This document shows positions 27,188 to 39,282 of a stretch of 41,252 bases of DNA, in pieces. Origin of the DNA: a virus. Location of the stretch: positions 1 to 41,252 of the IMG/VR virus record IMGVR_UViG_3300023109_000045, one strand, 5' to 3'. How positions within the stretch are numbered: the stretch's first letter is position 1; every line of letters starts with the position of its first letter. A model generated the notes under the pieces. The model was not told the origin of the DNA. It ran no database searches and was given only the letters and a program-made list of their open reading frames with translations. Made by a program: the position numbers and the translations under genes.

Positions 27188-27393
27188 TGGCTATGCTTTT
27201 CAAATATACTGGTGGCATTATTATGGGCCTATCTTTCTTTGTGGTTCTCGGTACAGCTGGCGCTGATTGCGATGGTGCATGTATGGAAAACTCACTAACA
27301 GTTTCAGAAATATTATTTAACATAGCCTATGCATCTATTGCTGGTTTCGTAGGTTATAAAATGTACAGATATGGAGATGACTATCTTGGTTAA
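27187..27393 (+). CDS. Small two-helix membrane protein with Cys pair
   Basis: The 68-residue protein starts at ATG 27187 (overlapping the previous stop) and begins MAMLFKYTGGIIMGLSFFVV. One hydrophobic helix is near the N-terminus and a second, EILFNIAYASIAGFVGYKMY, near the C-terminus. Between them lies a short loop GADCDGACMEN with two cysteines that could form a disulfide in the periplasm. The first helix also resembles a signal peptide. Function unknown. Confidence 0.7.
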   Translation: MAMLFKYTGGIIMGLSFFVVLGTAGADCDGACMENSLTVSEILFNIAYASIAGFVGYKMYRYGDDYLG

Positions 27394-27721
27394 AACAGTT
27401 AAAGAACGTGAATCTGTAAAGGTTCTCGAAGAATGTATTGAACTACAAAAACGTAAAGGTGAAGACTATCAGTCTGCTAAATCTAACGTAGTACAAGCAA
27501 TGCATTATCGTCGTGGTGTAGATACTATCTATGATATTATGCACGGTAAAATGATGCGTGCTGCATCCTTACTTGAATCTGGTGAAGATCCTAATCACGA
27601 ATCATTAGAAGATACGTTTATGGATCTTATTAATTATTCTTCGTTTGCAGTATCATATATGCGTGGTACAATGGATGGACAAGATCCTGATAATGATATG
27701 TTCAATAGGCCAAAAAAATGA
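27371..27721 (+). CDS. DUF1599-like nucleotide-modification-associated protein
   Basis: The 116-residue protein shows KGEDYQS near residue 35, YDIMHGKMMRAASLL in the middle and EDTFMDLINYSSFAV near the end. This K-x-x-DY plus K-x-x-R plus DLxNY arrangement is like DUF1599 (nucleotide modification associated domain 1), thought to be an all-alpha nucleotide-processing fold. Its neighbourhood with a dCMP hydroxymethylase supports a role in modified-nucleotide supply or dCTP removal. The start is uncertain: ATG 27371 lies 22 nt inside the previous gene, and ATG 27377 or TTG 27386 are also possible. Confidence 0.6.
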   Translation: MEMTILVKTVKERESVKVLEECIELQKRKGEDYQSAKSNVVQAMHYRRGVDTIYDIMHGKMMRAASLLESGEDPNHESLEDTFMDLINYSSFAVSYMRGTMDGQDPDNDMFNRPKK

Positions 27722-28059
27722 AAGTCAGTGCTCTTAATATCGGCGGAGACATCGTAAAGTCAGACGATCGTTATGTCGTTACAGATAATAGGCTTCTAAA
27801 TAATTTAGTGTTGAGTACTACAGATTTATTTGCTAAAAAATCTACCAGTGGTCACGCTCACCCAGGTCAAGAAGAAGTTTATTATTTTCGTCAAGGTTCT
27901 GGTAGAATGGAACTTATTGATACCAATGGCGTACACCACGATGAAAAAGTAAAAGCTGGTGATATTGTTTTAATTCCAGACGGATGGTTTCACCGCGTGC
28001 ACGCAGGCCCGCACGGATGTTATTTCGTTTGTGTATTTGATGGAAAGAGAGAACATTGA
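27718..28059 (+). CDS. Cupin-domain protein A
   Basis: The 113-residue single-domain cupin has motif 1 in GHAHPGQEEVYYFRQGSGRM (His46, His48, Glu52/53) and motif 2 in GDIVLIPDGWFHRV (His92). These ligands would hold a divalent metal. Small cupins act as sugar-phosphate isomerases, epimerases or dioxygenases, or only bind small molecules. It overlaps its neighbours on both sides (ATGA upstream, TTGA downstream), so it is made together with the cytidylyltransferase-like protein and the hydroxymethylase. Confidence 0.8.
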   Translation: MKVSALNIGGDIVKSDDRYVVTDNRLLNNLVLSTTDLFAKKSTSGHAHPGQEEVYYFRQGSGRMELIDTNGVHHDEKVKAGDIVLIPDGWFHRVHAGPHGCYFVCVFDGKREH

Positions 28060-28469
28060 AAGTAGGACTTACAGCATCTACATTTGATTTGCTTCACGCT
28101 GGACATATTGCTATGTTAAGAGAAGCTAAATCACAATGTGATTATTTAATTGTTGCATTACAGGTTGACCCTACTTTAGATAGGGCTGATAAGAATGCAC
28201 CTATTCAAAGTATCGTAGAACGTCAGGCTCAGGTTGCTGCAGTAAAATATGTTGATGAAGTCATTATTTATTGTACAGAAGCCGATTTACTTGATATAAT
28301 AAACATGTATGATATTGATGTACGAATCCTTGGAGAAGAGTATCGTCAAAAAGATTTCACAGGTAAAGACGAATGTCGCAATCGTGGCATTGAACTTTAC
28401 TTTAATAAACGAGACCATAGGTTCTCATCATCAGATCTAAGGGAGAGAGTCTGTGCAAAACGTAAATGA
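28056..28469 (+). CDS. Cytidylyltransferase-like nucleotidyltransferase
   Basis: The 137-residue protein has the HxGH motif at STFDLLHAGHIAMLREAK (HAGH 14-17) and a C-terminal FSSSDLRERV in place of the usual ISTT segment. It resembles glycerol-3-phosphate and related cytidylyltransferases (TagD/RfaE-type), which make CDP- or ADP-activated alcohols and sugars. The start is TTG 28056, fused with the cupin stop as TTGA. It overlaps the hydroxymethylase gene by 17 nt. The real substrate is unknown; the setting suggests supply of an activated group for DNA or nucleotide modification. Confidence 0.75.
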   Translation: MKVGLTASTFDLLHAGHIAMLREAKSQCDYLIVALQVDPTLDRADKNAPIQSIVERQAQVAAVKYVDEVIIYCTEADLLDIINMYDIDVRILGEEYRQKDFTGKDECRNRGIELYFNKRDHRFSSSDLRERVCAKRK

Positions 28470-29151
28470 TATTCGAGAGTTATTTGTTAACGCACTCGAA
28501 AATAAAGAATTCACCACTGATCGTAATGGTAGTAAAACCATCGAAGTAATTGGCGCTTCCTTCCTTGCCAATGAACCGGCGATCTTTGGTGAACCAAATG
28601 AGGATTACATCAATGCTGAAGTGGATTGGTATCTTGGTATGTCTACCAATATCAATGACATACCTTACGGTGATGAGCCTCCTAAAGCTTGGCAAATGGC
28701 TGCTAATGACCACGGTGAAATTAACTCTAACTATGGTAATCTTATTTTTAGTGATAAGTATTATCGCCAATTTGACAATGTAGTTAATGAACTATTGTGG
28801 AATATGGATTCTCGTCGAGCCATTATGATTTACAATCGTCCATCAATCTGGACAGAATTTAATGAACTTGGTAAGAATGATTTTATCTGTACTAATGCAG
28901 TTAGCTACTATATTCGTAATGCTAAAATTCACGCTGTAGTCCAAATGCGATCTAATGATGTAGTCTTTGGTTATAAGAATGATTATGCATGGCAGCACTA
29001 TGTTTTGAATCAGGTGACACAAGCATACAATCAACAATATCTTGGTAATGCTGCTGATGCAGATTATCGTAAAGAAATGGAAGTTGGTGATATAACTTGG
29101 CAAGTTCAAAACTTGCATGTTTATGAAAGGCACTTTGATTTAGTAAAATGA
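28453..29151 (+). CDS. 42: Deoxycytidylate 5-hydroxymethylase, T4 gp42-like
   Basis: The 232-residue protein (T4 gp42: 246) matches gp42 over its length: TIEVIGASFLANEPAIFG, then GEINSNYG, then SRRAIMIYNRPS, then the catalytic-Cys segment FICTNAV (Cys146) and VVQMRSNDVVFGYKNDYAW, ending in LHVYERHFDLV. It belongs to the thymidylate synthase fold but has the C-T-N active site of dCMP hydroxymethylase rather than the P-C-H of ThyA. It converts dCMP to 5-hydroxymethyl-dCMP with methylene-tetrahydrofolate. The start is GTG 28453, preceded by GGGAGAGAG. Confidence 0.92.
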   Translation: MQNVNDIRELFVNALENKEFTTDRNGSKTIEVIGASFLANEPAIFGEPNEDYINAEVDWYLGMSTNINDIPYGDEPPKAWQMAANDHGEINSNYGNLIFSDKYYRQFDNVVNELLWNMDSRRAIMIYNRPSIWTEFNELGKNDFICTNAVSYYIRNAKIHAVVQMRSNDVVFGYKNDYAWQHYVLNQVTQAYNQQYLGNAADADYRKEMEVGDITWQVQNLHVYERHFDLVK

Positions 29152-29492
29152 TTGCAGGAAAAGTTTGGGGACAAACGGAACTTATAGAAGCAAATGGCGC
29201 CTGTGAGTTTCATCGAATTGAATATAAAGCAGGAATGCAATGTTCAGAACATAAACATGAATTTAAGTGGAATGGCTTTTATGTAGAGTCAGGCACTATG
29301 ATGATTAGAGTATGGCAGGAAGATCAAGGATTAGTTGATGAAACTATCTTGTATCCCGGCGATTTTACAAAAGTAAAGCCAGGACTCTATCATCAGTTTA
29401 TTGGAATTGAAGACGGAATTGCTTTTGAATTGTATTGGGCAGAATTCAATCATAACGATATTAAACGTAAAACATCAGGTGGTAAAACATAA
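29148..29492 (+). CDS. Cupin-domain protein B
   Basis: The 114-residue cupin has motif 1 in CSEHKHEFKWNGFYVESGTM (His35, His37, Glu47) and motif 2 in PGDFTKVKPGLYHQFIGIED (His82). It differs clearly from cupin A, so the two are not a recent duplication. It sits by overlaps between the hydroxymethylase and dCMP deaminase genes. A metal-dependent sugar or small-molecule enzyme is likely; the exact role is not visible in the sequence. Confidence 0.8.
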   Translation: MIAGKVWGQTELIEANGACEFHRIEYKAGMQCSEHKHEFKWNGFYVESGTMMIRVWQEDQGLVDETILYPGDFTKVKPGLYHQFIGIEDGIAFELYWAEFNHNDIKRKTSGGKT

Positions 29493-29992
29493 TGTATGAT
29501 AAGTGGGACAAACGCTATCTCTTATTGGCCAAGCATATTGCTTCGTGGTCAAAAGATCCTTCAAGACAAATTGGTGCAGTAGCTGTTGGAGACAACGGTG
29601 AAGTATTAGCACAAGGATATAATGGTTTCCCACGAGGCATTGAAGACTACCCTGAAAGATATGAGCACAGACCGACAAAATACAAGTTTGTAGTTCATGC
29701 AGAAATGAATGTCATATATAACTCATCATGGAATGGTGTATCTCTTGCTGGTTCGACACTATACGTATATGGTTTACCTGTTTGTAGCGATTGTGCTAAA
29801 GGTATTATCCAAGTAGGTATTGAACGAGTAGTAATGGTTGATCAGATTATTCCAGAAGATTGGAGAAATTCTGCAAGCCAGACATTTGAAATGTTTGACG
29901 AAGCAGGTATTGTATATGAATTTGTTAGTTTAGACGATGGTCCATATGAAGATAATGTTGTTGAGCTTAAACCAAAAAAAGATTTCGAATAG
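29492..29992 (+). CDS. cd: dCMP deaminase
   Basis: The 166-residue protein (T4 Cd: 193) has the zinc site HAEMN (His69, Glu71) and PVCSDC (Cys98, Cys101), together with KDPSRQIGAV and YNGFPRG typical of deoxycytidylate deaminases. It turns dCMP into dUMP, which the ThyX encoded at 38617 converts to dTMP, while the gp42-like enzyme competes for the same dCMP. The start overlaps the cupin B stop as TAATG. The next promoter begins 13 nt after its stop. Confidence 0.95.
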   Translation: MYDKWDKRYLLLAKHIASWSKDPSRQIGAVAVGDNGEVLAQGYNGFPRGIEDYPERYEHRPTKYKFVVHAEMNVIYNSSWNGVSLAGSTLYVYGLPVCSDCAKGIIQVGIERVVMVDQIIPEDWRNSASQTFEMFDEAGIVYEFVSLDDGPYEDNVVELKPKKDFE

Positions 29993-30004
29993 TGAATTTT
30001 TTAG

Positions 30005-30033
30005 TGTACAAACCCTCATATATATGATATAAT
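30005..30033 (+). promoter_or_regulatory. Host-type promoter of the DNA-glycosylation operon
   Basis: TGTACA (30005-30010), 17 nt, then TATAAT (30028-30033) preceded by TGA. The predicted start near 30040 leaves a leader of about 23 nt with AGGTGA before the ATG at 30063. It would drive the glycosyltransferase, epimerase, dehydrogenase and methyltransferase genes. Confidence 0.78.
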
Positions 30034-30062
30034 AACTATTATAATAAAGACAGGTGAAAAAT

Positions 30063-31283
30063 ATGAAAGTCGTACATATTCTAGGCCGCGGCATTGAAGG
30101 CTGCGGTGTAACTCGATTCACGCTCGAGTTAAAAGATTGGGCACTTAAAAAGGGGTGGGATTATACAGTCTATGCTCCTAGCGATAAAAAGTGGACACGT
30201 GCTGCATCTCACTACCTAGATGAAAATATTAAACAGTGGAAGTGGGGTAATAAACCTGCTCGTGGAGATACGATCTGCGGCACTGAAATAATTACCGAAG
30301 ATTGCAATAAGGCTGATTTAGTACTTATTGGTTCATTACCATCGAAAGGACACCCTGACGATTGTATCGAAAACTTCGGTAAAATGATTGATGGAATCAC
30401 GACTAAAAAAGTTATGATTCAACACGATCATAAAATGATGTCTATCAAGCGTAATGCTTTGCTTGATGATGTTATTAAATCTGCAAACGTTATTCTATCT
30501 TATTCTACTAAAAGTCCTTTTATGGATTACTGTAGAAATCTTGGTGCTAAGGCTAATTCATATAGCTTTTGTAATGGCGTTAATGTAGAAAGCATTCGTA
30601 AACAATATTGGAAACCTATTGAAGATCAAGATCCAAATCATTTGAAATGGATTGGCAGGTCTGCATATTGGAAAGGTTTCGATGTTATGTTCGACTTACA
30701 GAAAAGTTTACCAGATCCTTTGTACACATTAGAAGGAATGGAGAAATCAATTCAATTTGTTGATATCCGCGAAAAATTTGAATTCCACGAAATGGCTGAA
30801 AACTTTGATGTTGAAACAGTAGCTGGTGGAAAGCCTTATGTTTTTGGTGCATTCAAGCATGCTGAAATGTTAGAACGTATGTCAAAGTGTGGCTTTGGTT
30901 TTCAATTGACAACTCTTCAACCTGAATATATTCAAAACTTTATTGAATTTACTCACTTAGAAATTGCAGCTGTTGGTGTAGTTCCAATCTTTAGAAAAGC
31001 TTTTGGCGATCATTGTACACATTTGCAAACTGGCAATAAACTTACTGCTGATAAAAACACTGGTACTATATGGGCTGGTGAAGTAGGTACAGACTGGTCA
31101 GAAACTATTGAAGTCATAAATAAGCTTAGAAAAGATAATGTAATGCGTGACGAATGGCGAGAAATGGCTTACGAATATTACGCATCACATAATGGACCAG
31201 ATGTATCGTTCCCTGATATATTTGACAAAATTAACAAAACACCAGATAATCAACCACAAGGACTAGAGGAATTTTTCGCATGA
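30063..31283 (+). CDS. agt: DNA glycosyltransferase, T4 alpha-glucosyltransferase (AGT) homologue
   Basis: The 406-residue protein (T4 AGT: 400) matches AGT along its length: GRGIEGCGVTRFTLELKDW (8-26), QHDHKMMSIKRN, WIGRSAYWKGFDVMFD, EMLERMSKCGFGFQLT and FIEFTHLEIAAVGVVPIF. T4 AGT moves glucose from UDP-glucose to 5-hydroxymethylcytosine in DNA. The homologue has about 14 residues beyond the T4 end, finishing PDNQPQGLEEFFA, a clamp-binding-like tail. I chose ATG 30063 (AGGTGA 5 nt upstream) over GTG 30054. The next two genes encode UDP-sugar enzymes, so the donor sugar may not be glucose. Confidence 0.9.
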   Translation: MKVVHILGRGIEGCGVTRFTLELKDWALKKGWDYTVYAPSDKKWTRAASHYLDENIKQWKWGNKPARGDTICGTEIITEDCNKADLVLIGSLPSKGHPDDCIENFGKMIDGITTKKVMIQHDHKMMSIKRNALLDDVIKSANVILSYSTKSPFMDYCRNLGAKANSYSFCNGVNVESIRKQYWKPIEDQDPNHLKWIGRSAYWKGFDVMFDLQKSLPDPLYTLEGMEKSIQFVDIREKFEFHEMAENFDVETVAGGKPYVFGAFKHAEMLERMSKCGFGFQLTTLQPEYIQNFIEFTHLEIAAVGVVPIFRKAFGDHCTHLQTGNKLTADKNTGTIWAGEVGTDWSETIEVINKLRKDNVMRDEWREMAYEYYASHNGPDVSFPDIFDKINKTPDNQPQGLEEFFA

Positions 31284-32239
31284 AACAAAGAATTTATATC
31301 ACTGGCATAGCCGGAATGATCGGATACCACACAGCAATGAAACTGCATAGCGAAGGTTATGAAGTTTTTGGTTGTGATAACTTTAATCCATACTACGATC
31401 CACAGCTAAAATACGATAGAGAAAAACTATTGAACGAAGCTGGAATTCCACCTGAAAATATTTTGAGTCTTGATATTAATGCTATTAATTGGGCTAGTCA
31501 ATTAGAAAACATGGATGCCATAATCCACTTAGCAGCTTTTGCTAATCCACGGCACTCTATGGAAATGACCGAACCATATATCGATACTAATATCACTGGT
31601 ACTATGAAAATTGCTCAAGGTGCTGAACGATCAAAATGCCCAGTTATTTACGCATCATCGTCATGCGTCATGCATGGTCAGCCGCTTCCATGGAACGAAC
31701 ACGATAAAGGTGAACACCAAAATAACCCTTATGGTTGGTCTAAGTATGTAAACGAATGTCAGTTTGCACATAGTAATGTTCCAAAATCTGCTGGTCTTCG
31801 TTTCTTTACAGTCTATGGTCCTTACGGTCGACCTGATATGGCGCTGTTTAAGTTTGCAGATGGCATTGTAGCAAATGAGCCTATTGATCTATATAACTTT
31901 GGAGATATGAAACGTGACTTTACTTACGTTGACGACATTGTGCAAGGTATTAAAATTGTAACTGATAACATTCTTGACGGTAATCAAGAAAAAGATCATG
32001 AAATTTTCTGTATTGGTTATGGTGAACAAGTAGAGCTTGTGCAGTTTGTAGATGAAATTGAAAAGAATCTTGATCGTAAAGCAATTCGTAACTTAGTACC
32101 TAAGCATGTAGCTGATACTCCAGAAACTTGGTCAGATACTACTAAATTGCAAAAGCTTGGATATAAACCAACCACTTCAATTGAAGTAGGTGTAAAGAAC
32201 TTTATTGAATGGTACAAAGGCTATTACAATGTTAATTAA
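31280..32239 (+). CDS. UDP-glucuronate 4-epimerase-like NAD-dependent epimerase
   Basis: The 319-residue extended SDR has the nucleotide-binding TGIAGMIGYH (8-17), the Ser segment YASSSCVMHG (124-133) and the catalytic pair Tyr151/Lys155 in YGWSK. The NPYYDPQLKYDRE loop and GRPDMALFKF followed by GDMKRDFTYVDDI are typical of UDP-glucuronate 4-epimerases, giving UDP-galacturonate. It overlaps the AGT homologue by ATGA and the dehydrogenase gene by 11 nt. UDP-glucose 4-epimerase or a UDP-xylose-type decarboxylase are alternatives; the GRPDMALF segment argues for the former group. Confidence 0.8.
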   Translation: MKQRIYITGIAGMIGYHTAMKLHSEGYEVFGCDNFNPYYDPQLKYDREKLLNEAGIPPENILSLDINAINWASQLENMDAIIHLAAFANPRHSMEMTEPYIDTNITGTMKIAQGAERSKCPVIYASSSCVMHGQPLPWNEHDKGEHQNNPYGWSKYVNECQFAHSNVPKSAGLRFFTVYGPYGRPDMALFKFADGIVANEPIDLYNFGDMKRDFTYVDDIVQGIKIVTDNILDGNQEKDHEIFCIGYGEQVELVQFVDEIEKNLDRKAIRNLVPKHVADTPETWSDTTKLQKLGYKPTTSIEVGVKNFIEWYKGYYNVN

Positions 32240-33062
32240 TCGAAATCTTCAAGTAGGTATTGTAGGCCACGGCTTTGTGGGTAAAGCTGTGGACTATGGC
32301 TTTAGCCAATCCAATGTCGATAAGTTTATTGTAGATCCTAATTACGATACTACAATTAAAGAACTAAGTGACTTTGATCCTGATATTACGTTTGTTGCAG
32401 TACCTACTCCAATGGAAGATGATGGAAAGATTGATGCATCTATCGTTAAAAAGGTAGTTAAAGAACTTATAGATAACACTAAAGGTTTCATTGTAGTTAA
32501 ATCCACAGTGACTCCGGATATTATGATAGAGCTGTCAAAGCTTTCGAAAGAACGTCTTGTTTACAACCCTGAGTTCCTTACTGAAAAAAATGCAAACGAT
32601 GATTTCGTCAACCCTAAAATGCACGTGTTCGGTGGTGATCCGGCGACTTGCAGATACATCGAAGAAATGTACGCCAGTTATTCTTTATGCAGGCCATGTC
32701 CTGTCTTCCACGTTTCAATTGCTGAAGCAAGCCTTATCAAGTATGGAATCAACAGTTTCCTCGCTACGAAAGTCTTGTGGTTCAACCAGTTCTTTGATGT
32801 TGTTAACGGTCATGGAAACTTTAATAGAATTATCGCTGCTATCGGTACTGATCCTCGTATCGGTCATAGTCACACTGTTGTACCTGGGTTTGATGGCCGT
32901 CGCGGTTACGGTGGTGCTTGTTTCCCTAAAGATACAAAAGCTTTATCATTCTTTGCTCCAGAGTTCACTGTTCTCGAAAAAGTAATTGAAGCTAATAATC
33001 AACTTCGTTCTGGATATGAGAGGGACGATAGAGAGAAAGAGCAAAACGTAAATTATGACTAG
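32229..33062 (+). CDS. Short UDP-glucose 6-dehydrogenase-like protein
   Basis: The 277-residue protein has the Rossmann motif VGIVGHGFVGKAVDYG, then VAVPTPMEDDGKID, VVKSTVTP, YNPEFLTEKNA and the catalytic Cys231 in GYGGACFPKDTKAL. These are the signatures of UDP-glucose/GDP-mannose dehydrogenases, which oxidise UDP-glucose to UDP-glucuronate. Full enzymes have roughly 390-450 residues; this one stops soon after the catalytic Cys and lacks the C-terminal UDP-binding domain. ATG 32229 has AAAGG 8 nt upstream. It overlaps both neighbours. Activity may need a partner or a different substrate. Confidence 0.82.
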   Translation: MLINRNLQVGIVGHGFVGKAVDYGFSQSNVDKFIVDPNYDTTIKELSDFDPDITFVAVPTPMEDDGKIDASIVKKVVKELIDNTKGFIVVKSTVTPDIMIELSKLSKERLVYNPEFLTEKNANDDFVNPKMHVFGGDPATCRYIEEMYASYSLCRPCPVFHVSIAEASLIKYGINSFLATKVLWFNQFFDVVNGHGNFNRIIAAIGTDPRIGHSHTVVPGFDGRRGYGGACFPKDTKALSFFAPEFTVLEKVIEANNQLRSGYERDDREKEQNVNYD

Positions 33063-34245
33063 TTATGCAAGTATTGTTCCACTTATAGGTGGAGAAACCT
33101 TTGCTATGCAAAATGTGTTTGGTGTTAAACCTGAGTACATTTTATCATACTCAGGATTTGAAGCAAACGATAGCCAATTGGTGAATTATTATGAAAACGA
33201 AGTTCCCTATATTAAACTCGATGAAGGAGGAAAAGCTCCTCATAAAGTGGATGTTGTCAACTCTGTATGTCCTTGTGCTGGTCTTTCTAGCCTTAGTGTT
33301 TCTTCATCATCTAACTCAGAACATAATGACTGGATGGTTAAGTCTAGCGAATACATCCTTGAAACAGTCTCACCAAAAGTTTTATGGGGAGAAAATGCGC
33401 CAAGACTCGCATCAGCAATGGGTGAACCTGTCGTACGACAGCTTAGAAAACTCGCCGCAAAACATGGATATACATTCAGCTTATACAAAACTAAAAGTAT
33501 CTTACACGGACTAAGTCAAATTCGTGATAGAGCATTCTTTTTCTTTTGGAAAGGTAATAGCGTACCTGTTTTTGATTATTATAAACGCCCTCATAAACTC
33601 ATTGAAGACCAGATTAGATCTTCTGCAAGAAACGATGCAGATCCAATGTCTGATCTTATTGTACAAAAAGAGAAACCTTCAGAAAACCCATATTACAGAT
33701 ATGTTTTAGAGGAGATGCACGGTGGCATTAATCACACAGACTTTTTTAAGATCATTGAAAAAACTACGAACGTATTGCATCACTTTGAAGACGAAGGTGG
33801 TTCATACTATGATATGGCTAAGTGGATGGTGAAAGAAGGATACGAAAAGCATTCTCAAAAATGTATTCGTATGGGAGATAAGTTAAAGTCAGGCGGTAAC
33901 ATTATGCGTAAGACTACTGAAATCCCAAAAAATTATATCGGAGCTTTTGTAGGTCATATGCCTATTATGCTTACACACCCTGATGTTGATAGGTATCTTA
34001 ACGTTAGAGAGTGTTTAGATATTATGGGTATGCCTAAAGACTTTCAACTTCAAGGCGGTGTAAAGAATCTAAATATGATTTGTCAGAATGTTCCTGTTAC
34101 TACTGCATCTGATATGGCTGCAAACGTTAAAGACTTTATTGCTGGTAACTTAAAAACAATTAAGTCTAATTTTGCTATTCAAGATAATAAGCAACAAAAG
34201 TTTTGGTCAGAACCAGAACCTTCTACATTAGAAGCGTTTATGTAA
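33055..34245 (+). CDS. C5-cytosine DNA methyltransferase-like protein
   Basis: The 396-residue protein follows the order of C5-MTase motifs in altered form: PLIGGETFAMQNVFG (motif I), SVCPCAGLSSLS (motif IV with nucleophile Cys74; canonical PCQ is PCA), WGENAPRL (VI), GLSQIRDRAFFF (VIII), VRECLDIMGMPKDF (IX) and CQNVPVTTASD (X). It thus probably binds DNA and acts on cytosine C5, but hydroxymethylated C5 is already occupied. Its terminal STLEAFM after a loose linker resembles the clamp-binding tails of gp43 and the AGT homologue. It overlaps the dehydrogenase gene by 8 nt. Confidence 0.8.
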   Translation: MTSYASIVPLIGGETFAMQNVFGVKPEYILSYSGFEANDSQLVNYYENEVPYIKLDEGGKAPHKVDVVNSVCPCAGLSSLSVSSSSNSEHNDWMVKSSEYILETVSPKVLWGENAPRLASAMGEPVVRQLRKLAAKHGYTFSLYKTKSILHGLSQIRDRAFFFFWKGNSVPVFDYYKRPHKLIEDQIRSSARNDADPMSDLIVQKEKPSENPYYRYVLEEMHGGINHTDFFKIIEKTTNVLHHFEDEGGSYYDMAKWMVKEGYEKHSQKCIRMGDKLKSGGNIMRKTTEIPKNYIGAFVGHMPIMLTHPDVDRYLNVRECLDIMGMPKDFQLQGGVKNLNMICQNVPVTTASDMAANVKDFIAGNLKTIKSNFAIQDNKQQKFWSEPEPSTLEAFM

Positions 34246-34246
34246 T

Positions 34247-34846
34247 TTGGCAGAATGGAAAAGTGAAATGTGGCAAGATGACACTCCAGCAGCAATCAAA
34301 ATTAATCTAGGTTGCAGTACTCAAAAAATGGAAGGAATGATAAACGTAGACATCACTCCTACATGTAACCCTGATAAGGTTATGGACATTTCAAAACCAT
34401 GGGATTTCCCTGACGATTACTTTGATGAAATTCACGCTTATCATATTTTAGAACATCTTGACTACGAACAATTTATTGAATGTATGAAAGAAATATATAG
34501 GTGTGGCAAAGATGGATGCTTTGTTAAAGTAGAAATACCTCATCCATACAATGATAAGTATTGGATTGATCCTTCTCATAAACTTCCTATTATGGCAGAA
34601 ACGTTTAATATGTTTCACAGAGACGTTTGCATAGATATGGAAAGAGCAGGTCAAGGTAATACACCGTTAGCAATAATTCATAATATCAATATCGTTCCAC
34701 TTGAATGGCATAGATATTTAGAAAAAGACATTCAGCAAAAACTAGATCGTGGTGAACTTACAAAAGATGAAGTAGACCACATGGAAATACACCAAAACAA
34801 CATTGTCTGGGCTTATGGCGTAGACCTAAAAGTTGTAAAAATATAA
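34247..34846 (+). CDS. Class I SAM-dependent methyltransferase
   Basis: The 199-residue protein has motif I KINLGCSTQKMEGMINVDIT (LGC 21-23) and the following FDEIHAYHILEHL, as in many small-molecule and sugar methyltransferases. The start is unclear: TTG 34247 directly follows the previous stop without a good ribosome site, and ATG 34268 has GGAAAAGTG ahead. The gene ends the glycosylation operon, just before the uvsX promoter. Its target is unknown; a nucleotide-sugar or the DNA-borne sugar would fit the context. Confidence 0.75.
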   Translation: MAEWKSEMWQDDTPAAIKINLGCSTQKMEGMINVDITPTCNPDKVMDISKPWDFPDDYFDEIHAYHILEHLDYEQFIECMKEIYRCGKDGCFVKVEIPHPYNDKYWIDPSHKLPIMAETFNMFHRDVCIDMERAGQGNTPLAIIHNINIVPLEWHRYLEKDIQQKLDRGELTKDEVDHMEIHQNNIVWAYGVDLKVVKI

Positions 34847-37241: not shown

Positions 37242-38620
37242 GTACTAGTATCGAGCAAGCAGTCCTTAGATCTCTCCTCACGGACGAAAAGTACATGAGG
37301 AAAGTTCTACCTTTTATCAGACCTGAGTATTTTGAAGGGCCTTACAGAGTTCTCTTCAAAGAGGCAGGTAAGTTTGTAGCAAAATACAATAAGCTACCTA
37401 CTGCCGAAAGTCTTGTGATTGAATTACAAGAAGCTAATAATATGTCTGATGAACAGTTTCAAATTTCTATGGATATTATCCCGAATTTGTTTAAGGCTGA
37501 AGAGGTGGATAGTGATTGGTTGCTCGATACTACCGAAAAATGGTGTCAAGATCGTGCATTACATAACGCCATTATGGAATCTATTTCTATTATTGATGGT
37601 AAGCACGAATCACTAACTAAAAACGCATTACCAGATATTTTGCAAAAAGCTCTGGGTGTTGCATTCGATACAAACGTGGGGCATGATTATGTTGAAAACG
37701 CAGAACAAAGATTTGAATTCTACAACAAAGATGAAGACCGTCTTCCATTCGATCTTGAGTACTTTAATAAGATTACAAAGGGAGGTATCCCGAGCAAAAC
37801 TCTTAATATTGCTCTCGCTGGGACTGGCGTTGGTAAATCTTTGTTTATGTGTCATGTTGCTGCTGCTGCATTAACACAAGGTAGAAATGTTCTGTATATC
37901 ACTATGGAAATGGCAGAAGAACGTATTGCAGAACGTATTGATGCTAACTTACTTAACGTAGCAATTGAACAAATTGAAAAGCTACCTAAAACTTTGTTTA
38001 CTGAAAAGGTTGCTGAACTTGCTAAAAAGACTAATGGTAAACTTATCATTAAAGAATATCCTACTGGTTCTGCTCATTCTGGTCATTTCAGAGCTCTTCT
38101 TAACGAACTAAAACTTAAAAGACAATTTCAACCTGATATAATCTTTATTGATTATCTAAACATTTGCTCATCATCTCGGATGAAAGGTATGGGTGGATCT
38201 ATCAATTCATATAATTATATAAAAGCAATTGCTGAGGAGTTACGTGGTCTTGCTGTTGAATTTGATGTACCTGTATTTTCTGCGACTCAAACTACTCGTA
38301 GTGGATTTACAAATAGTGATGTTGGACTTGAAGATACGTCTGAAAGCTTTGGTCTACCAGCTACAGCGGATCTTATGTTTGCTCTTATTTCGACAGAAGA
38401 ACTAGAAAAATCTGGCCAACTTATGGTCAAACAATTGAAGAATAGATATAATGATCCAACAAAATATAAACGTTTTGTTGTCGGTGTCGATAGATCTAAA
38501 ATGAGATTATTTGATGCTGAAGAAAGTAACCAAACACTAATGGATGATACGCCAGTGTTTGATAAATCTACAACCGCAGAGCGTATCAGTGCTGAAAAGT
38601 TTCAAGGATTCAAGCTATGA
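37238..38620 (+). CDS. 41: Replicative DNA helicase gp41 (DnaB-like)
   Basis: The 460-residue protein (T4 gp41: 475) has Walker A ALAGTGVGKS (192-201), Walker B IIFIDYLNICSS, and TQTTRSGF with the following SESFGLPATADLMFAL. It forms the hexameric helicase of the primosome at the fork. The start is TTG 37238, fused to the previous stop as TTGA. It overlaps thyX by ATGA. Confidence 0.95.
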   Translation: MSTSIEQAVLRSLLTDEKYMRKVLPFIRPEYFEGPYRVLFKEAGKFVAKYNKLPTAESLVIELQEANNMSDEQFQISMDIIPNLFKAEEVDSDWLLDTTEKWCQDRALHNAIMESISIIDGKHESLTKNALPDILQKALGVAFDTNVGHDYVENAEQRFEFYNKDEDRLPFDLEYFNKITKGGIPSKTLNIALAGTGVGKSLFMCHVAAAALTQGRNVLYITMEMAEERIAERIDANLLNVAIEQIEKLPKTLFTEKVAELAKKTNGKLIIKEYPTGSAHSGHFRALLNELKLKRQFQPDIIFIDYLNICSSSRMKGMGGSINSYNYIKAIAEELRGLAVEFDVPVFSATQTTRSGFTNSDVGLEDTSESFGLPATADLMFALISTEELEKSGQLMVKQLKNRYNDPTKYKRFVVGVDRSKMRLFDAEESNQTLMDDTPVFDKSTTAERISAEKFQGFKL

Positions 38621-39282
38621 GTGTAAGACTTATTTCATATTCACAAACAACGGAGAATCTACATGTCGGTAACGATATACAGGAACTCGTGGCGTATTGC
38701 GCCCGTGTCTCCAATCCCTCAAACCAAATTAACGAAGAGACCTCGGCAAAATTGCTACGTTATCTTGCACAACACAAACATTGGTCGCCTTTCGAAATGG
38801 TGTCTGCTTGCTTAGAGATCGAAACAACTCGCGATATTGCAAGGCAAATTTTACGCCATCGTTCATTTTCATTCCAAGAGTTTAGCCAAAGGTATGCTAA
38901 TCCAGTAGAAGATTTAGAATTTGTTCGGAGAGGTGCAAGATTGCAAGATCCTAAGAATCGACAAAATTCTATTGATGCAGCTGATATTCAAACACAAGAC
39001 ATGTGGGATATGAAGCAACAAGAAGTTATTGCTAAATCTAAAGAAGTTTATAACTGGGCAATCGAACAAGGGATTGCAAAAGAACAAGCGAGGTCGGTAT
39101 TACCCGAAGGCCTGACGATGTCTCGCTTATATGTTAATGGTACCTTACGATCGTGGATTCATTTCATTGATCTTAGGTCAGGCAACGGTACACAACGAGA
39201 ACACATGGCAATTGCTCAAGCATGCGCCAAAGCAATTTCGCAGGTGTTCCCTACAATTGAGGAGTTTGCTAATGGAGATTAA
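38617..39282 (+). CDS. thyX: Flavin-dependent thymidylate synthase ThyX
   Basis: The 221-residue protein has the ThyX signature RHRSFSFQEFSQRY (80-93), which binds FAD and dUMP, and later ARSVLPEGLTM and LRSWIHFIDLRS typical of the family. It makes dTMP from dUMP using methylene-tetrahydrofolate and NADPH. T4 has the unrelated Td enzyme; ThyX is common in marine phages. With dCMP deaminase and the gp42-like protein it divides the dCMP pool between thymidine and hydroxymethylcytosine. Its end overlaps the next start. Confidence 0.96.
   Translation: MSVRLISYSQTTENLHVGNDIQELVAYCARVSNPSNQINEETSAKLLRYLAQHKHWSPFEMVSACLEIETTRDIARQILRHRSFSFQEFSQRYANPVEDLEFVRRGARLQDPKNRQNSIDAADIQTQDMWDMKQQEVIAKSKEVYNWAIEQGIAKEQARSVLPEGLTMSRLYVNGTLRSWIHFIDLRSGNGTQREHMAIAQACAKAISQVFPTIEEFANGD

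Follow-up and report, generated by a model that had tools for sequence, protein, structure and literature searches.

The stretch of DNA analysed here, hereafter the window, is the whole of the 41,252-base virus record IMGVR_UViG_3300023109_000045 of IMG/VR, which is probably a fragment. A single + strand operon (positions 27371-34846), located between primase and UvsX, combines a dCMP 5-hydroxymethylase (HMase) of the T4 gp42 type and a homologue of the T4 alpha-glucosyltransferase (AGT) with a short-chain dehydrogenase/reductase of the UDP-glucuronate 4-epimerase type (SDR) and a short UDP-glucose-6-dehydrogenase-like protein (UGDH). It is very likely that the SDR and the UGDH provide the donor for DNA glycosylation, and the sugar on 5-hydroxymethylcytosine (hmC) is, with moderate confidence, taken to be a uronate, most likely galacturonate. 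A broader proposal is put forward tentatively: T4-like environmental phages may place galacturonic acid on hmC by means of a donor cassette that can be exchanged, consisting of either SDR-UGDH or UDP-galactopyranose mutase (GLF), and that would serve the unrelated transferases AGT, GTx and TAGT, with transfer tethered to the replication clamp and with extra negative charge on each modified cytosine.

Enzymes of the cluster

The genes of the HMase, AGT, SDR and UGDH all lie on the + strand and are joined by short overlaps; the range from HMase to UGDH (28453-33062) additionally includes a cupin gene (29148-29492) and a dCMP deaminase gene (29492-29992). Chance was excluded as an explanation for the four-gene cluster because of the E-values given below and because the same order is repeated in tens of other contigs.

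The HMase (28453..29151, +) has the T4 dCMP hydroxymethylase as its best PDB match (1b49, E=1.3e-67), the homology being full-length. The catalytic Cys is retained (context DFICTN), as is the key Asp in RSNDVVFGYKNDYAWQ, where chains 6a9a and 6l18 have Asn; we take Asp179 to be the dCMP-selecting residue of the T4 hydroxymethylase. By sequence, this protein of the thymidylate synthase family is a T4 gp42-type enzyme and the predicted maker of hydroxymethyl-dCMP. It was also considered as a 5-hydroxy-dCMP synthase of the RB69 type, which was ruled out because ORF048c, the RB69 homologue, is only 25% identical to it, as compared with 50.7% for T4 gp42.

The AGT (30063..31283, +; likeliest start ATG 30063, alternative GTG start 30054) scores 174.6 bits against PF11440 (curated cut-off 25; 4e-51), and residues 2-395 align to T4 AGT structures with E=2.7e-63 (1y6f). 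The two proteins are about 33% identical and have the HDH, WIGR..WKG and E-F-T-H-L-E motifs in common; the window AGT is predicted to be an hmC glycosyltransferase. A preliminary description of the window had named a gp42-like hydroxymethylase and a full-length AGT homologue, and hence hmC synthesis and a DNA transferase in one operon; these assignments are borne out by the homology and the key residues. In one related locus (L103), two neighbouring AGT-labelled open reading frames (ORFs) occur in one operon.

The SDR (31280..32239, +) matches 5u4q best (2.5e-66), followed by the Bacillus cereus UDP-glucuronate 4-epimerase BcUGAepi (6zl6, 6.6e-32) and MoeE5, whereas UDP-xylose synthases are reached only at about 1e-12. 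The entry 6zl6 was identified as BcUGAepi because its residue numbering agrees with that in the literature (PMC7984243). The SDR retains the YxxxK motif (YGWSK) and the equivalent of the product-binding Arg185 (RPDM), and its residue in place of Ser128 is Cys and not the Glu of the decarboxylases (residue roles according to PMC7984243 and PMC12338863). This signature supports assignment to the UDP-glucuronate 4-epimerases and not to the decarboxylases. The window SDR was likewise rejected as a UDP-xylose synthase, since the Glu is missing and the scores are weak.

The UGDH (32229..33062, +; likeliest start ATG 32229) has 277 amino acids and consists of the NAD and central domains only (PF03721 and PF00984). 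The motifs GGACFPKD, NPEFLTE and KYGIN are present, and the catalytic Lys, Asn, Cys, Asp and Glu are invariant among phage UGDHs. An AlphaFold2 model (predicted local distance difference test, pLDDT, 92.9) was matched by Foldseek to the UGDH structure 3gg2 (4.6e-17). The two overlapping genes stand directly downstream of the AGT as had been described, with the start of the UGDH moved to ATG 32229.

Recurrence of the SDR-UGDH pair

Viral contigs were searched for UGDH, AGT and GTx and, by means of a profile, for the SDR. Of the distinct viral loci with an SDR, 79 in all, 54 carry AGT, 9 carry GTx and 6 carry the TET-associated transferase (TAGT, PF20691). Four of the 10 others (L109, L132, L147, L156) start close to the SDR and continue with a C5-cytosine DNA methyltransferase-like gene (C5MT) and UvsX, the upstream part being mostly cut off; another is the phage C48C1. 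The SDR stands directly downstream of AGT in 52 of 83 genes and of GTx in 9 (61 together), usually with an overlap of 4 bp, and UGDH follows the SDR next in 58 of the 83.

The loci can be described as five arrangements. The first, HMase-deaminase-AGT-SDR-UGDH-C5MT-UvsX, is found in two deep AGT lineages, and the second, AGT-C5MT-UvsX, occurs without SDR and UGDH; at least two changes in SDR pairing are required on the AGT tree. In the third, GTx (374 amino acids, phrog_14998) replaces AGT in an operon otherwise like the first. TAGT phages form the fourth, with SDR, UGDH, cytidylyltransferase and phosphomannomutase (PMM)-like genes (L155, L158, L161-L163, L151, L165, L166) and no HMase in the stretch read; in L155, a GT4-like gene lies immediately ahead of the SDR. 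In the fifth, UGDH is accompanied by genes for a cupin, a PMM-like protein and a cytidylyltransferase, with neither SDR nor AGT in the locus; one contig with such a locus (L013) has GTx and SDR elsewhere. A PF11440 search of the AGT-free contigs gave no match, but its controls were silent too, so that this search alone is no proof of absence; the controls of an HMase search were likewise silent, with the same consequence.

Taken with the mutase loci described below, these arrangements make genes of nucleotide-sugar synthesis recurrent neighbours of DNA transferase genes. The recurrence of the pair beside all three transferases also upholds the view that SDR and UGDH are part of a DNA-modification module.

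GTx, TAGT and the mutase

GTx homologues, annotated as hypothetical proteins, were located at L072:10041-11162:-, in L080-L092, at 50998-52032 of the complete phage C48C1 and in Aeromonas phage 25 (L250 4004-5080). In hmC operons, GTx stands where AGT would otherwise be, and in C48C1 it adjoins a Tet/JBP gene; it is therefore a candidate new DNA glycosyltransferase family, found also in T4-like Aeromonas phages. Its AlphaFold2 model has a pLDDT of 60, and the Foldseek matches, several of them GT-B glycosyltransferases, are weak (none with E <0.001) and thus suggestive only.

In C48C1, a Tet/JBP dioxygenase, the GTx homologue and GLF stand in a row, and SDR-UGDH is also present. The pair can therefore go together with GTx and a dioxygenase of the Tet/JBP type, and does not depend on the HMase route. 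GLF adjoins GTx both in C48C1 (49583-53030, L251) and in Aeromonas phage 25 (L250 2899-5080), occupies the SDR slot after GTx in L092 (5977-8114), and is present in a GTx contig (G023) and a TAGT contig (G026). Its position beside GTx suggests a furanose donor for DNA modification. A search for Tet_JBP in the TAGT contigs G024, G025, G026 and G028 gave no match.

Clamp-type tails

The AGT ends in PQGLEEFFA (31254..31280, +), an LxxFF-like tail of the clamp-binding type, and similar ends are found in the DNA polymerase (MTLEDFFV) and the C5MT (STLEAFM). In related loci, a C-terminal LxxF(F/L/M etc.) was found in 29/30 DNA polymerases, 23/30 AGTs and 30/34 C5MTs, as compared with 0/28 SDRs, 0/47 UGDHs and 12/443 other ORFs. 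The clamp gp45 is bound by T4 AGT (PMC13216743). Because polymerase-like tails are found only on AGT and C5MT of these enzymes, and T4 AGT binds gp45, we infer that AGT and C5MT act on DNA at the clamp and that SDR and UGDH are soluble.

Proposed pathway and nature of the sugar

In the proposed pathway, dCMP would be hydroxymethylated by HMase ahead of polymerisation, and AGT, tethered to the clamp via its LEEFF tail, would add the sugar to hmC of the newly made strand. UDP-glucose would be oxidised by the short UGDH to UDP-glucuronate, which the SDR would epimerise at C4 to UDP-galacturonate. If this is the product of the two enzymes, the sugar on the DNA would most likely be galacturonic acid, alpha-linked if the stereochemistry of T4 AGT is kept. 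A number of observations weigh against this pathway and are considered here together with the other explanations to which they lend support.

The first concern is one of sampling. The SDR profile was seeded with transferase-linked loci and C48C1, and the best 80 nearest matches were taken; the TAGT loci lay outside the seed. In addition, AGTs that occur without SDR and UGDH are up to 67% (about 66%) identical to the window AGT, and no alignment column with a parallel change was found to separate AGTs with and without SDR in the two lineages, so the AGT sequence gave no indication of donor specificity. UGDH also occurs in AGT-free phages, beside cytidylyltransferase, PMM and KdsA-like genes. 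These AGT and UGDH findings speak for a rival explanation in which AGT moves plain glucose from host UDP-glucose, as in T4, and SDR and UGDH serve another purpose, such as a change of host surface polysaccharide or a drain on UDP-glucose. This explanation is considered unlikely: the pair follows three unrelated types of DNA transferase within the replication and modification module, and no GT2 or GT4 enzyme over the cut-off, as would be used for surface glycans, was found in four long contigs of AGT relatives (146.6, 121, 91 and 64 kb), although one AGT contig (G031) does carry a GT4-type enzyme.

The second concern is the carboxylate-binding pocket of the SDR. The network formed by Thr/Ser126, Ser127 and Ser128 is not complete, as the window SDR has SSC with Cys at 128; [ST]SC was found in 112 viral SDR sequences, whereas 67/70 bacterial relatives have [ST]SS. 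Disruption of the carboxylate grip in BcUGAepi was reported to lead to decarboxylation (PMC12338863). Hence the donor could be a derivative of the uronate, either a pentose of the UDP-xylose or UDP-arabinose type formed by decarboxylation or a furanose, and the DNA sugar could be neutral. Such a donor would fit the GLF genes that accompany GTx and the pentoses already known on phage cytosine, in Thanatos (PMC12838424) and RB69. It would also fit two loci with a tandem second SDR in which Ser128 is replaced by a Glu of the decarboxylase type (TGE) (L082:8091-9056 and L083:6227-7192), possibly a pentose branch. The window operon has no second SDR, its SDR keeps the product-binding Arg and lacks the Glu, and GLF was absent from all five SDR-bearing AGT contigs tested; a derivative is accordingly regarded as an improbable donor.

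The third concern is the UGDH. A profile search showed that the UDP-binding C-terminal domain PF03720 is absent from the window UGDH, and it is missing in all 46 of the 46 distinct phage UGDHs checked (274-335 amino acids), most of which have a conserved tail, REKEQNVNY, instead. Nor was PF03720 found to be encoded elsewhere in 6 related long contigs or genomes, including the complete C48C1, while 14/14 control genomes matched. Because the domain is absent, the substrate of the phage UGDH may differ from UDP-glucose. The assignment of the two genes as a UDP-uronate pair, made in the preliminary description, is supported for the SDR by its 4-epimerase signature; for the UGDH it is weakened by a missing domain that had been overlooked. 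With its catalytic residues kept, the short UGDH might oxidise C6 of glucose already on the DNA after transfer by AGT, and the use of UDP-glucose by the AGTs of all these phages would fit the 66% identity between AGTs with and without UGDH. Oxidation on the DNA is nevertheless highly improbable, given that the UGDHs lack the clamp tail, that the neighbouring SDR resembles enzymes acting on free UDP-uronates, and that UGDH is present in AGT-free phages.

Under the favoured pathway to galacturonate, phage hmC glycosylation would extend from neutral sugars to an acidic one, and recognition by restriction, CRISPR and Type IV enzymes as well as the charge of the packaged DNA should change. One donor pair shared by differing DNA transferases would also give a testable rule by which the DNA sugar is predicted from gene order, and attention is drawn to GTx as a family of candidate DNA glycosyltransferases that had gone unrecognised.

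Other genes of the operon and window

The gene order of the operon is DUF1599 protein, cupin, cytidylyltransferase, HMase, cupin, dCMP deaminase, AGT, SDR, UGDH, C5MT and S-adenosylmethionine (SAM)-dependent methyltransferase, all on the + strand. The DUF1599 protein (27371..27721; 'nucleotide modification associated domain 1', PF07659 1.1e-6) is found upstream of HMase in related loci too. It is followed by a small cupin protein (27718..28059; Cupin_1/Cupin_2 about 1e-7), also present in several relatives, and by a cytidylyltransferase-like protein of the HldE-C/TagD type (28056..28469; PF01467 1e-13, with TIGR02199 and TIGR01518 under cut-off), whose gene accompanies all transferase types in related loci. 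The second cupin (29148..29492) belongs to phrog_7851 (PF07883 9e-7); both cupins and the cytidylyltransferase-like gene (27718-28469 and 29148-29492) travel with the operon. The dCMP deaminase (29492..29992) matches PF00383 (8.6e-18) and phrog_174 (4e-44).

The C5MT (33055..34245; PF00145 2.6e-15), with its polymerase-like tail, is kept in these phages with or without SDR and UGDH. The SAM-dependent methyltransferase-like gene (34247..34846; phrog_6636 6.6e-14) is restricted to the closest relatives (4 distinct proteins). The window also encodes a separate thymidylate synthase (38617..39282, +), which belongs to phrog_85 (8e-75) and is taken to be ThyX. The T4-like myovirus core genes in the window are those for tail sheath, terminase, portal, major head protein, clamp, clamp loader, polymerase, UvsX and a DnaB-like helicase.

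Two further observations concern relatives. A small protein of the uracil-DNA-glycosylase superfamily (weak PF03167; L065:4933-5298 and 14 more) lies between dCMP deaminase and transferase and was not seen in the window. Genes resembling QueE, FolE and QueC (L016:13112-14050 and relatives; L107:1966-2646) occur in some phages with UGDH or SDR, QueE and FolE being read from sequence and QueC assigned by Pfam; 7-deazaguanine modification may coexist in these phages.

Comparison with known systems

In the literature searched, neither uronosyl-hmC nor a donor cassette common to unrelated DNA transferases was found, and no relevant paper on galacturonate on phage DNA was met. A negatively charged uronate on DNA had been described beforehand as a feature that would be new. 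This can be maintained, as far as the papers found show, for hmC that bears a uronic acid in glycosidic linkage; a charged sugar on phage DNA is already known from Bacillus phage SP-15, whose DNA carries phosphoglucuronate (or its lactone) on a hypermodified uracil (DHPU) (PMC5977210). SP-15 encodes a UGDH, the proposed source of the glucuronate, and in this it resembles the phages described here. It differs in the modified uracil, the phosphodiester linkage and a gene cluster like that for teichuronic acid, and no hmC or AGT was described (PMC5977210).

RB69 had been cited as a precedent for arabinosyl-hmC, which does not hold because RB69-type phages (Mosigvirus) make 5-hydroxycytosine and carry the arabinose on it; the base is made via a different enzyme of the thymidylate synthase family, 5-hydroxy-dCMP synthase (PMC13390438). 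Genes for a phage-encoded non-glucose sugar donor lie between DNA polymerase and UvsX in both systems; in RB69 they are those for arabinose-5-phosphate isomerase and NTP-transferase (PMC13390438), and neither UGDH nor SDR is annotated in the stretch read.

Shewanella phage Thanatos, with deoxypentosyl-cytosine, likewise supplies the activated sugar for its DNA cytosine itself, using a UDP-sugar pyrophosphorylase instead of UGDH and SDR (PMC12838424). The UDP-glucuronate 4-epimerase of B. cereus and MoeE5 have in common with the SDR the fold family, YxxxK, the Arg185 equivalent and the [ST]S of the carboxylate network, and differ in Ser128, which is Cys in the phage group. The closest parallel for base and transfer is the hmC glucosylation of T4, as a gp42-type HMase, a dCMP deaminase and a full-length AGT are found in both. 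T4 draws on host UDP-glucose without UGDH or SDR, whereas the window AGT, with its polymerase-like tail, is coupled to genes for donor synthesis.

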